64,000 nt of DNA, from assembly GCA_018268715.1 (NCBI GenBank), contig JAFDVZ010000003.1:310001-374000 (forward strand), read 5' to 3'. Origin of the DNA: Acidobacteriota bacterium. GTDB lineage: Bacteria > Acidobacteriota > Terriglobia > Bryobacterales > Bryobacteraceae. Both the position numbers and the translations under genes were made by a program. Positions 32,721 to 37,293 of this stretch are shown here, in pieces (positions within the stretch are counted from its first letter, which is position 1; every line of letters starts with the position of its first letter). The notes under the pieces are model-generated. The model did no database searches and was not told the DNA's origin. It worked only from the letters and a program-made list of their open reading frames with translations.

Positions 32721-35700
32721 ATGCCCGAAAACACCATCGCCTCTTTCGACGACGTCCTCCGCCAGGAGGTCGACCAGCTCCGCGCCCGCCGGTCGAAGGT
32801 GCTTTCCTGCGACGAACCCGCGCATCCCGGCGAGTCCCCCGCCGCCCAGGCCATCCGCTTCCGCCCCTTCGGCATGGGCATCTCGGGCGGTGGCATCCGC
32901 AGCGCCACGTTCAACCTCGGCATTCTCCAGGGACTCGCCGCCCACGGCGTCCTGCCCTACATCGACTACCTGTCCACGGTATCCGGCGGAGGCTACGTCG
33001 GCTCCTGGCTCCACGGCGTCATCCAGCGCAAATGTGGCGGCGACCCCCGCCAACTCATCCCCACCGCCGGCGACAGCCCCATCCAGCGCCGCGTTCCCGG
33101 CCCCCCCGCCGAGGACCCGGTCAACTACCTCCGAAACTACAGCAACTACCTCGCTCCCCGCCGCGGCGCGCTCGGCGTCGACAACTGGGTCATCCTCTCC
33201 ATCTGGCTCCGGAACATGTTCCTGAACCAGTTGATCCTCATCCCGTTCCTCACCGCCCTGCTGACGCTCACCCTGCTGGCCGCTCGCATCGCGGGCCGCA
33301 CCCCCGGCATCCTGGCGGGGACCATCCTCAGCGCCCTCGCGTTCGTCATGTTATTCGTCGCCGTGGTCAACGCCGGCCGGAACCTCCGCGCCATCGTGGC
33401 CACGCAATTCGCCGCCCCCGGCGACAGCCCCCCGCCGATTGCGAATCAAACGGCCTGGCCCACGGTCCTGGGAGTCGTCGCGTCCTCCGTGCTGATCTAC
33501 AGCCTGCACTGGACCCCGATCGAGGACATCCTGCCCGCCGTCCCCTGGATCACGCCCTGGGAGCTGTTTCTCGCCTCTATGTGGATTCTGCACCTCACCC
33601 TCCAGTTGGGCGGTGGATTCCTCGAATGCCACAGGGCGCAGCACCCCAAAAGCGCGGCGGGCCCCTTCCACACCCTGTGGATGTCGACGCTCTCGGCCAT
33701 TGTCACCACCGCCCTGCTCTGCGCGGTCACCCAACTGGTGGCCAACGCGAGCGGCGGCGAAAAGCTGCTGCGCGAACACGGCGCCGCCTGGAACACCGTC
33801 ATCTGGGGACCGCCCCTCGTCCTGGTCGTCATCATCTGGGGCGTATCCCTCCAAATCGGACTCATGGGCGTCGACTTCCCCGACGCCTCCCGCGAATGGC
33901 TCGCCCGCATCGGCGCGGTCCTGTCCATCGTCATCGTCCTGTGGACCGCCTTCACCGCCATCGCCCTCTACGGCCCCTATTCGGTCGCCTGGCTCGCCGT
34001 GAACTACGGCGCCACCGCGGTCGCCGCCATCGCCACCTGGGCCGGCGGCGCCTACGTCGGCGTCCGATCCGCCAACAACTCCACCACCGGCGGCGACGAC
34101 AAACCCTCCAAAGGCGTCAAGGACACGCTGCTCGGCCTCGCCCCGACGTTCTTCATCATCGGCCTGCTGATCCTGATCGCCGCCGGCATCCATCTGGGCC
34201 TTGCCGCCATCACCGGCGCGACGCCCACAACCCCCGCGCCGGCCACCCACGTCACCGGCTACCAGCAGTACTTCCAGCCCCTCGCGCCCTTCCTGTGGCG
34301 ATACAACGCCGTGCTCGAAAGCGACGCCTTCCCCATGGCGGCCGGTCTGATCCTGCTCGTCACCGGAGCCATCGCCCTCCTGCTGCCCCTGCGTGTCAAC
34401 ATCAACGAATTCTCGCTGCACCACTTCTATAAGAACCGCCTGGTGCGCTGTTACATGGGCGCCGGCCATCCCAACCGCCAGCCGAACCCCTTCACCGGCT
34501 TCGACCCCAAGGACGACATTCTCCTCAACGCGCTCCACCCCGCCGCCGGCTACCACGGCCCCTACCCCATCCTGAACACCGCCCTCAATCTCAGCGCCGG
34601 CTCCGAACTGTCGAAGCAGGAACGTCAGGCGACCTCGTTCGTCTTCACCCCCCTCTATTGCGGCTTCGACCCGCCCACCTCCACCGCCGACGCGCCCAAC
34701 TCGCGCCTCAACGCCAACGGCTACTACCCCACCATCGACTACACCGCGCCCGGCGGCCCCCACATCGGAACCGCCATGGCCATCTCCGGCGCCGCCGCCA
34801 ACCCCAACGGCGGTTACCACACCTCGCCGAGCGTCGCCTTCCTGCTCAGTCTGTTCAACGTCCGCCTCGGCTGGTGGGTCGGCAACCCGCGCATCCAGTG
34901 CGCCCCCTCGAGCGACATGTGTCCCCCGCGCCGCCCCGGCCCCCTGTACGGCCTGTTATGGCTCATCTGGGAACTGCTCGGCCGCACCACCGGCCGCAGC
35001 AGTTACGTGAACCTCTCCGACGGCGGCCACTTCGAAAACCTCGGCCTCTACGAACTGATCCGCCGCCGTTGCCGCTACATCATCATCGGCGACGGCGAGG
35101 AGGATCCCCACTACACCTTCGAATCCCTCGGCGGCGCCATCCGCAAATGCCGCGCCGATTTCGGCGTCGAAATCGACATCGACGTCGACCAGATCCAGGC
35201 CAAGGACTCCACCCGTCGCGCCCACTGCGTCGTCGGAACCGTCACCTATCCCGAAGACGCCCCCTCCGGCCAAACCCGCGCCACCGGCTGGATTCTCTAT
35301 CTCAAGGCGAGCCTCACCTCCGACGAACCGCAGGACGTCCAGCAGTATCACGAATTCGACCCCGTATTCCCCCAACAGCCCACCACCGACCAGTTCTTCA
35401 CCGAATCGCAGTTTGAAAGCTACCGCCGCCTGGGCCTGCACATCGTGGACTCCGCCTTCGAAAACGCCCCGTCCTCGCTCAAATCCCAACTCGACGCCCG
35501 CGCCCCCATCGCGCCCGCCGACCTCCACGTGAGCCTCGACAACCTGTTCGGATTCCTCGCCGCGCTGTGGCGCCCGCCCGTCAACGTCCCCACCGACGTC
35601 GTCACCCGCATGAACGACGCCTACACGCGCCTCACCACCCGCCTGTGCAACGAACCGGAACTCGCCTTCCTCGACGTCGAAGTCCTCGGCGGCTCCGTCG

Positions 35701-35966
35701 GCGTCCCGCCGCCCATCCCCACCGACCCGGCCGCCCTCCGCAAGGCGACTTTCTTCGTGCTCGACCTCATCCAGCTCACCGAAAACGTCTGGTTCGAGTT
35801 CCGTCTCCAGGGCGAATCGAATCGCACCAACCCGAAAAACAGCGGCTGGATGACCGTCTTCCGCCAATGGGTGCGCGCCCCCTTCATCGGCGGCGTCTGG
35901 CGGCAGGTGAAGGGTAACTACAACCCTCTGTTTGTGTCCTTCATGGACGATCTGGCGCGCCGATGA
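32721..35966 (+). CDS. Patatin-like phospholipase with a large multi-span membrane insert
   Basis: A 1,081-residue membrane protein. The N-terminal patatin oxyanion motif GISGGGIRSATFNLGILQGL (53-72) is followed by the likely nucleophile Ser88 in STVSGGGYVGSW. The usual first Gly of G-x-S-x-G is Thr. The catalytic Asp767 sits in NLSDGGHFENLGLYEL, about 680 residues later. Between them are some nine hydrophobic segments (about 170-580; e.g. LILIPFLTALLTLTLLAA, IGAVLSIVIVLWTAFTAIAL, TFFIIGLLILIAAGI) and a soluble region (about 600-750). Patatins hydrolyse ester lipids. Such long split patatins exist in other bacteria, but their function is poorly known. Its stop overlaps the next ATG (ATGA). 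Confidence 0.85.
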   Translation: MPENTIASFDDVLRQEVDQLRARRSKVLSCDEPAHPGESPAAQAIRFRPFGMGISGGGIRSATFNLGILQGLAAHGVLPYIDYLSTVSGGGYVGSWLHGVIQRKCGGDPRQLIPTAGDSPIQRRVPGPPAEDPVNYLRNYSNYLAPRRGALGVDNWVILSIWLRNMFLNQLILIPFLTALLTLTLLAARIAGRTPGILAGTILSALAFVMLFVAVVNAGRNLRAIVATQFAAPGDSPPPIANQTAWPTVLGVVASSVLIYSLHWTPIEDILPAVPWITPWELFLASMWILHLTLQLGGGFLECHRAQHPKSAAGPFHTLWMSTLSAIVTTALLCAVTQLVANASGGEKLLREHGAAWNTVIWGPPLVLVVIIWGVSLQIGLMGVDFPDASREWLARIGAVLSIVIVLWTAFTAIALYGPYSVAWLAVNYGATAVAAIATWAGGAYVGVRSANNSTTGGDDKPSKGVKDTLLGLAPTFFIIGLLILIAAGIHLGLAAITGATPTTPAPATHVTGYQQYFQPLAPFLWRYNAVLESDAFPMAAGLILLVTGAIALLLPLRVNINEFSLHHFYKNRLVRCYMGAGHPNRQPNPFTGFDPKDDILLNALHPAAGYHGPYPILNTALNLSAGSELSKQERQATSFVFTPLYCGFDPPTSTADAPNSRLNANGYYPTIDYTAPGGPHIGTAMAISGAAANPNGGYHTSPSVAFLLSLFNVRLGWWVGNPRIQCAPSSDMCPPRRPGPLYGLLWLIWELLGRTTGRSSYVNLSDGGHFENLGLYELIRRRCRYIIIGDGEEDPHYTFESLGGAIRKCRADFGVEIDIDVDQIQAKDSTRRAHCVVGTVTYPEDAPSGQTRATGWILYLKASLTSDEPQDVQQYHEFDPVFPQQPTTDQFFTESQFESYRRLGLHIVDSAFENAPSSLKSQLDARAPIAPADLHVSLDNLFGFLAALWRPPVNVPTDVVTRMNDAYTRLTTRLCNEPELAFLDVEVLGGSVGVPPPIPTDPAALRKATFFVLDLIQLTENVWFEFRLQGESNRTNPKNSGWMTVFRQWVRAPFIGGVWRQVKGNYNPLFVSFMDDLARR

Positions 35967-36157
35967 GCCCCGCCGTCGGACTCTGCGCCACCTGTCAATA
36001 CGTCCGCGAAGTGCGCTCGGACCGCGGCTCGGTCTTTTACCGTTGCGCGCTCTCGGCCCAGGACCCGGTCTACCCCAAGTACCCGCGCCTGCCCGTGCTG
36101 CGCTGTCCGGGCTGGACTCCGCCCGCCCCCGCCCAGGAACCGGTCACCCCCTCCTAG
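35963..36157 (+). CDS. 64-residue Cys-rich protein coupled to the patatin gene
   Basis: The ATG overlaps the patatin stop (ATGA, 35963-35966), so its translation is coupled. It has four cysteines in LCATCQYVREVRS, FYRCALSAQDP and VLRCPGWTP, a C-x2-C...C...C layout that fits a small zinc ribbon or iron-sulfur knuckle. The Trp/Pro-rich tail is disordered-looking. It is too small for an enzyme; an accessory or metal-dependent adaptor for the patatin is the best guess (inference). Confidence 0.65.
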   Translation: MSPAVGLCATCQYVREVRSDRGSVFYRCALSAQDPVYPKYPRLPVLRCPGWTPPAPAQEPVTPS

Positions 36158-36264
36158 CGACCGCTGAGCGCGCGATTTTCGACGCCGGGGTCCGATTCAT
36201 CCGAGACGCCGCCCCCGCTCGGTATGATGGTCTTTATCGAGATCGGCTCGGAGGCCATGTCAGC

Positions 36265-37293
36265 ATGCGGAAGGTACCCCTCAGCGAATCGTTGCGAATC
36301 ATCGCCAGAGGCTCGGCCAACTGGGTAGCCGAGCGTCCCATCGTCGTATCGTTTGAAGTCACCGACGCCTGCACCTGCTATTGCCGTCACTGCGATCACG
36401 GCGGCCCCAAGGACACCTCCACCAATCTGAAGCCCGCCGACTACCGCCGTTACATGGACGTGCTGAATCCCTGCGTGGTCCAGGTCTCGGGCGGCGAGCC
36501 GCTGATGCGCAACGACCTCACCGAGATCGTCCGCAACATCAAATCGGATAACGGCCTGCCCTACATCCTGCTGGTCTCCTCCTGGTCCCTCATGACCGAG
36601 GAGCGTTACCTGGAACTCCGCCGCGCCGGCGTCGACCAGTTCTCCGTCAGCCTGGATTTCCCCGACAACCGCCACGACGAATTCCGCGGCTACCCCGGCC
36701 TCTATCAGCAGTTGGACGACGTCATCCCGCGCTGCGCCCGCCACGGCTTCGACGACATCGTGTTGAACACCTGCATCACCGCCGCGAATCTCGAAGAGAT
36801 CAACGGCGCCGCCGACCAGGCGAAGAAGTGGGGCGTCAACATCTGTTACAGCGCCTATTCCGCGCGCCGCACCGGCAATCGCGAGCTGCTGCCCTCCAGC
36901 CCCGAACAGCTCCGCATCCTCGACTACCAGTTGAACGGCATTGAGAAGCGCCGCAACGGTTCGAACTTCATCGTCAGCGCCCCCACCACCATTGAGGCCA
37001 CCCGCCGCTACTTTGAAACCGGCGGGGCTCCCGGCTGCAAGGCCGGTCTGCGATTCCTGGTGGTGACCGCCGACGGCTACCTGCAGCCCTGCTCCATGCA
37101 GTTCAAGCGCTACCCGCTCGACCAGCAGGCCCGCATGGTGGAGGAGTTCACCCACCACAACACCTGCGACGAATGCTACGTCGCCATCCGCTCCAACCTG
37201 GACAAGAGCTTCCCCAAACTGCTCAAGGAAAACGTAGCCCGCTACTTCTCCTTCGCCTCCAACAGCCCGGGCGCGTCGGGCGGCGGCTGCTAA
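36265..37293 (+). CDS. Radical SAM enzyme with an SPASM-like C-terminus
   Basis: A 342-residue enzyme. The start at 36265 (MRKVPLSESLRIIARG) follows GGAGG by 10 nt; upstream sequence in the same frame is not protein-like. The radical SAM cluster is Cys36-x3-Cys40-x2-Cys43 (TDACTCYCRHCDHGG). GGEPLMR (about 78) is the SAM-binding motif. Near the end GAPGCKAGLRFLVVTADGYL and CSMQF, then NTCDEC, give the extra cysteines of an SPASM/twitch domain, and the protein ends GASGGGC. SPASM members modify peptides or small molecules. No precursor peptide gene is obvious nearby, except the 64-residue Cys protein 107 nt upstream. Confidence 0.85.
   Translation: MRKVPLSESLRIIARGSANWVAERPIVVSFEVTDACTCYCRHCDHGGPKDTSTNLKPADYRRYMDVLNPCVVQVSGGEPLMRNDLTEIVRNIKSDNGLPYILLVSSWSLMTEERYLELRRAGVDQFSVSLDFPDNRHDEFRGYPGLYQQLDDVIPRCARHGFDDIVLNTCITAANLEEINGAADQAKKWGVNICYSAYSARRTGNRELLPSSPEQLRILDYQLNGIEKRRNGSNFIVSAPTTIEATRRYFETGGAPGCKAGLRFLVVTADGYLQPCSMQFKRYPLDQQARMVEEFTHHNTCDECYVAIRSNLDKSFPKLLKENVARYFSFASNSPGASGGGC

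Follow-up and report, generated by a model that had tools for sequence, protein, structure and literature searches.

Patatin-like phospholipases (PF01734), among them proteins resembling cytosolic PLA2 and those of the CapV type, carry an SGGG oxyanion loop, a Ser nucleophile elbow, and an Asp residue within a DGG motif. The same features are present in P0001, a protein of 1081 amino acids encoded on the forward strand (positions 32721..35966) of a 64,000-nucleotide stretch of DNA from an Acidobacteriota bacterium of the Bryobacteraceae, hereafter called the window (GenBank assembly GCA_018268715.1, contig JAFDVZ010000003.1, positions 310,001 to 374,000). P0001 differs from PF01734 patatins in that the two halves of its patatin domain are parted by a polytopic membrane insert of approximately 390 residues, and in that Thr, Ser, or Ala replaces the first Gly of the GxSxG motif in all 26 aligned relatives. 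A patatin domain can also be joined to a membrane domain of another kind, as in PlpD, whose membrane barrel is C-terminal. In a published account (PMC11116518), the patatin domain of PlpD is reported to be tied to an outer-membrane Omp85 beta-barrel, whereas P0001 is predicted to carry an alpha-helical insert inside the patatin domain itself. Genes that are homologous to P0001 over both halves occur on rhizobial and other plasmids. However, these carry only the generic name ‘patatin-like phospholipase family protein’, and no description of their insert architecture was found.

Sequence comparisons suggest that P0001 is probably an inner-membrane lipid acyl hydrolase whose patatin domain is interrupted by the insert, and that P0002, a small gene whose start codon overlaps the P0001 stop codon, is independent of it. 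In the proposed arrangement, a bundle of about ten transmembrane helices would be inserted behind the nucleophile helix, and both patatin halves would return to the cytosolic face of the inner membrane. There, Ser88 and Asp767 would form the Ser-Asp dyad of a single active site, the SGGG loop would serve as the oxyanion hole, and the enzyme would attack acyl esters of lipids at the membrane in which it is embedded. If confirmed, a helical bundle that splits a catalytic domain would show how a soluble lipase fold may be incorporated into the very bilayer that carries its substrate.

Catalytic motifs and family assignment

The P0001 open reading frame (ORF) was compared with its relatives by using Pfam and a 26-sequence alignment (A1). 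The predicted oxyanion-hole loop, SGGGIRS (residues 55-61, 32883..32903), is invariant in all 26 sequences at S55, G56-G58, R60, and S61. The proposed nucleophile, Ser88 (codon TCC, 32982..32984), lies within the sequence STVSGGG, and the proposed dyad residue, Asp767 (codon GAC, 35019..35021), lies within SDGGHFENLG. Both residues are invariant (26/26), as is the D767-G768-G769 triplet of the DG[GA] motif, and residues S689-G690-A691-A692, among others, are likewise unchanged throughout A1. An earlier note on this DNA, prepared from the sequence alone, had described a patatin-type protein with these two residues about 680 positions apart, and the checked codons give a separation of 679 residues.

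The same note drew attention to a Thr residue at the first Gly position of the nucleophile motif. Thr86 is indeed present (TVS88GG), but it is not unusual among the relatives, where the position two residues before the invariant Ser is Thr in 18 sequences, Ser in seven, Ala in one, and Gly in none of the 26. The missing Gly is therefore a trait of the family. Because it is absent from all 26 sequences and also from a CapV-like patatin encoded at another locus (L158), which has the same STVSGG motif as P0001, the first Gly was not counted as a defining feature.

Pfam Patatin matches 20 of the 26 members of A1 at E ≤ 0.01 (best 1.8e-9), and one plasmid-borne relative (L158:5779-8415) exceeds the curated cut-off with 34.9 versus 27.7 bits. 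An hhalign comparison of A1 with three ordinary patatins yielded a probability of 95.6 over the nucleophile region, and a profile search of the PDB gave weak matches at this region to cytosolic PLA2 (cPLA2) and VipD (E 0.02-0.06). Because only the first half was aligned by hhalign, the assignment of the Asp half (residues 556-925, 34386..35495), as delimited by the alignment across homologues, rests on its conservation and on the insert-free relatives described below. P0001 has no match in NCBIfam or PADLOC and only weak matches in PHROGs (E ≥ 0.18).

Several results weigh against this reading. The Pfam Patatin match to P0001 itself covers only residues 54-97 (E 5e-4) and, at 20.7 bits, falls under the curated cut-off of 27.7. 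The Asp half was not joined to ordinary patatins by hhalign, and the PDB profile search returned equally weak matches to rhodopsins and transporters within the insert. An AlphaFold model based on a six-row alignment was uninformative (predicted local distance difference test (pLDDT) 43.4; predicted template modelling score (pTM) 0.37). To these is added a genome-level co-occurrence with P0002 that is mildly above chance, as detailed below.

A C-terminal extension (residues 930-1081, 35508..35963) has no Pfam match and is present in three of the 26 A1 rows (P0001, L003, and L039). It is limited to closer homologues, and several of those from the bacterial family match up to approximately residue 1075.

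Architecture and topology of the membrane insert

Hydropathy analysis confirms the multi-span insert that the earlier note had placed between Ser88 and Asp767. Its count of nine membrane helices is replaced by ten: when hydropathy is averaged over 19 residues across the 24 rows of A1 that carry the insert, ten peaks appear within residues 166-555 (33216..34385). In P0001 alone, seven of these peaks rise above the usual threshold of 1.6 and three are weaker. An odd number of helices would part Ser88 and Asp767 across the membrane, whereas ten spans would return both patatin halves to the same side.

The loops on the patatin side contain 305 Lys or Arg residues in 1831 (16.7 per 100 amino acids) versus 251 in 2954 (8.5 per 100) for the opposite loops, and the same bias is seen in each of the 24 rows. 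According to the positive-inside rule, the side rich in Lys and Arg faces the cytosol. Because of this bias and the rule, the patatin halves are predicted to be cytosolic.

The distance between Ser and Asp is 594-867 residues in 24 of the 26 rows, and this gap is occupied by hydrophobic segments. Two relatives, L064 and L065, lack the insert and have gaps of only 277 and 236 residues, but carry the same catalytic motifs as the insert-bearing rows. These two proteins are the best evidence that P0001 and its relatives have one domain that appears to have gained, or lost, a membrane insert. The invariant residues, the insert-free relatives, the even number of helices, and the charge bias all favour the membrane-embedded hydrolase suggested in the earlier note, although not the metal-binding accessory protein that it had paired with this enzyme.

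Distribution of P0001 relatives

Homologues of P0001 (E ≤ 1e-10) are found in 27 of 297 genomes of the phylum and in 33 of 121 genomes of the bacterial family, with the window genome (G000, 7.63 Mb) counted in both. This genome has a single copy of the gene, plus two ordinary patatins elsewhere. Homologues are also present in 41 plasmid records, mostly from rhizobia, Methylobacterium, and Cupriavidus. Gene neighbourhoods were covered for 25 of these records, comprising 19 annotated and six unannotated regions. Many of the plasmid copies carry the generic annotation noted above, and the insert architecture was not described in any paper located by a literature search of partial coverage or by a search of papers for the motifs. 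P0001 is a member of a widespread, generically annotated patatin architecture that, as far as we have found, is undescribed as such.

No P0001 homologue was found in phage records, and a viral scan with an insert-free relative as the query was likewise negative. A contig from the viral collection IMG/VR carries a patatin gene with insert that is open at the contig end (L142:4986-6977). This contig might be host DNA, and an ORF some 4 kb from the patatin gene encodes what we take to be an arginyl/leucyl-transferase-like protein.

Oxidoreductase genes near P0001 relatives

The most interesting part of the analysis is an unexpected lead from the gene neighbourhoods of the relatives. Among 80 patatin loci (window included), 10 carry at least one of four kinds of oxidoreductase gene, namely di-heme cytochromes of the type found at L003 (five loci), GMC oxidoreductases (four), RoxA-like proteins (PF21419; three), and heme peroxidase or catalase-like proteins of the type found at L156 (four). 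Two CXXCH motifs are present in all four of the sequences that were checked. The spacing is operon-like at some loci. At L003 the GMC gene is located 12 bp upstream of the patatin gene and the cytochrome gene just downstream, at L159 a cytochrome gene is located approximately 55 bp upstream, and a Mesorhizobium protein of 1562 amino acids is a fusion of GMC and patatin domains. Plasmids L195 and L197 provide further examples, with cytochrome-c or di-heme peroxidase neighbours.

Genes of the GMC and/or di-heme kinds stand beside the patatin gene, or are fused to it, in both Acidobacteriota and rhizobia (L003:2901-10490, L159:3858-9075, L169:1629-9335, and L143:467-8385). Animal-type heme peroxidase genes (PF03098) are located near patatin genes at L171:6317-11979, L156:6007-13496, and L043:14078-15847.

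According to published work, a fatty-acid dioxygenase and a diol synthase of P. aeruginosa are di-heme peroxidases like RoxA that oxygenate fatty acids (PMC4496055). This precedent, together with the neighbourhoods of the relatives, leads to a tentative proposal that we regard as possible but doubtful: the membrane-threaded patatins might be the lipases of an undescribed bacterial module for lipid oxidation. The patatin would carry out the first step by freeing unsaturated fatty acids from the membrane, and these would be oxygenated to oxylipin-like products by di-heme c-type (RoxA/FadCcp-like) peroxidases, animal-type heme peroxidases, or GMC oxidoreductases. In the window genome, the partner would be encoded elsewhere or would have been lost. 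No report of the oxidoreductase neighbourhood of these patatins turned up in a literature search.

Genome-level counts provide some support for this proposal. Eight of the 121 genomes of the bacterial family have a strong homologue of the L003 cytochrome, and six of the eight carry the patatin gene (p=0.005). With weak homologues included, seven of 15 cytochrome genomes have the patatin gene (p=0.117). The two genes are adjacent in two of 33 patatin genomes (G304 and G394), compared to an expectation of approximately 0.004, which is a rough rate that assumes a mean genome of 6.6 Mb. Animal heme peroxidases are present in 19 of the 121 genomes, of which 10 have the patatin gene (p=0.011) and one has the two genes adjacent (G412). 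Moreover, in a core tree without support values, the cytochrome-linked L159 and L003 group together as sister to the window protein plus L161. This tree does not include ten of 79 candidate loci, which yielded no sequence with the two motifs in one frame.

Against an oxidation role, such neighbours are lacking at the window locus and at 75 of 89 loci overall, where L145 is counted as positive by its annotation and L177 by an ORF with two CXXCH motifs. A motif scan found ORFs of the latter kind at 10 of the 89 loci and none in a 194-kb control, which is too small to decide the matter. The di-heme enzymes with CXXCH motifs are normally periplasmic, whereas the patatin halves are predicted to be cytosolic. 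Because the window genome lacks an L003-type cytochrome, and because its one An_peroxidase gene is located on another contig, an oxidation role is not established for P0001; the RoxA-like matches in this genome are below the cut-off. If true, the arrangement would be the bacterial counterpart of phospholipase A2 acting ahead of cyclooxygenase, with the cluster carried by the sister clade of the window protein. The recurrent oxidoreductase neighbours would also offer a way to test how fatty acids are supplied for bacterial oxylipins.

Other proposed roles for the patatin protein

A second possibility is that the patatin protein acts in anti-phage defence as an effector that damages membranes, comparable to CapV. 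TIR genes are located beside two relatives (L146 and L150), one of them matching ThsB_TIR, another relative (L158) is located beside a JAB protein and the CapV-like patatin mentioned above, and a fourth (L201) beside a gene of a Pycsar effector family. Such settings account for four of the 19 annotated plasmid regions. However, the relatives linked to TIR, to Pycsar, or to features resembling the cyclic-oligonucleotide-based antiphage signalling system (CBASS) are a minority and, where placed, belong to distant branches, as the core tree indicates for those linked to TIR. Unlike CBASS or CapV-type effectors, which share an operon with a nucleotide cyclase or with other defence genes, P0001 is surrounded in the window by metabolic or transport genes (aldo/keto reductase, glutathionylspermidine synthase, MacB/FtsX permease, radical SAM, carboxylesterase, and polysaccharide deacetylase). 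With the negative PADLOC and phage-record searches also considered, a defence role for P0001 is unlikely. L146, L150, L158, and L201 come from plasmids of rhizobia and Streptomyces.

It is less likely still that P0001 is a membrane transporter or channel in which a non-catalytic patatin domain serves as a regulatory module. The insert does equal the catalytic part in size, and the weak profile matches to transporters fall within it. However, the insert is poorly conserved in both sequence and length, whereas the catalytic residues are invariant, and L064 and L065 dispense with the insert entirely.

The window neighbours were not seen to recur as partners of the patatin relatives. For example, the radical SAM gene (36247-37290) was rejected as a candidate partner because none of the remaining 79 patatin loci has a homologue of it (E ≤ 1e-8).

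The overlapping P0002 gene

P0002 (35963..36157, forward strand) encodes a protein of 64 amino acids, and its ATG start codon overlaps the TGA stop codon of P0001 to form the sequence ATGA. The earlier note had described the product as a four-Cys knuckle. The ATGA start and the four Cys residues are present, but the arrangement (C8-x2-C11-x16-C28-x19-C48) differs in spacing from a zinc knuckle (CX2CX4HX4C) and includes no His residue. One spacing pattern fits the four Cys residues in 47 of 48 relatives, which also have a KYPxLPVxxCxG tail, making it plausible that these residues form a metal site. Modelled alone, P0002 yields a pLDDT of 63.7, and a PDB fold search with this model gave no match at E ≤ 0.001. 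The family has no match in Pfam or NCBIfam.

Homologue and locus searches place P0002 in a separate acidobacterial family that we judge to be outside of the patatin system. In the phylum, 48 of the 297 genomes have relatives of P0002 at E ≤ 0.01 (in 15 of them the match is weaker than 1e-6), and 38 of the 48 lack the patatin gene. In the bacterial family, 48 of the 121 genomes have relatives at E ≤ 0.001, and 29 of these lack the patatin gene. The gene is nearly always present as a single copy. Besides the window, 47 homologous loci were collected (L066-L094 and L124-L141). There is no constant neighbour among the 48 loci, where the most widely shared ORF group, apart from the gene itself, occurs at seven and consists of overlapping or antisense frames.

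The earlier note had proposed that the two genes form a coupled unit, and had stated that absence of the small gene beside most homologues of the patatin gene would refute this. It is missing from all of the others that were searched: no credible homologue exists at 59 other patatin loci (E ≤ 10; the best chance match has E 0.32) or at 79 other loci (E ≤ 1e-8; mostly with flanks of approximately 6 kb). Adjacency was observed at only one of 60 and one of 80 loci, and in both cases this is the window. The plasmid collection as a whole has no match. Where both genes are found in one genome, they are on different contigs in 17 of 18 other genomes of the bacterial family and approximately 164 kb apart in the remaining one (G304), and always on different contigs in nine phylum genomes other than that of the window. 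The nearest homologue of P0001 (L161) comes from one such genome (G368), with the two genes on different contigs.

Genome-level co-occurrence is nevertheless mildly above chance. Within the bacterial family, a P0002-type gene is present in 19 of the 33 genomes that have the patatin gene and in 29 of the 88 that do not (odds ratio 2.8, p=0.021); for the phylum, the counts are 10 of 27 and 38 of 270 (odds ratio 3.6, p=0.005). These p values carry no correction for lineage or genome size. Despite this trend, the ATGA overlap, and the conserved Cys residues, a functional unit of patatin and four-Cys protein with metal-dependent regulation is the least probable explanation considered, given the single instance of adjacency, the many patatin-free genomes with the small family, and the separate contigs in the genome of the nearest homologue. 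As a conserved unit the pairing is refuted, and the partner claim does not hold in general. P0002 is an independent gene that by chance overlaps the P0001 stop codon in this genome, which is a case of ordinary adjacency. Genes for tRNAs are found near P0002-type genes at two of the 48 loci.

Another type of ORF overlaps the stop codon of the patatin gene at three loci of an acidobacterial clade (family f23). These ORFs encode secreted, barrel-like proteins of approximately 250-280 amino acids, two of which were searched against Pfam and gave no match. They are located at L057:9527-10363, at approximately 9436-10268 of L060, and at L062:6200-6964.

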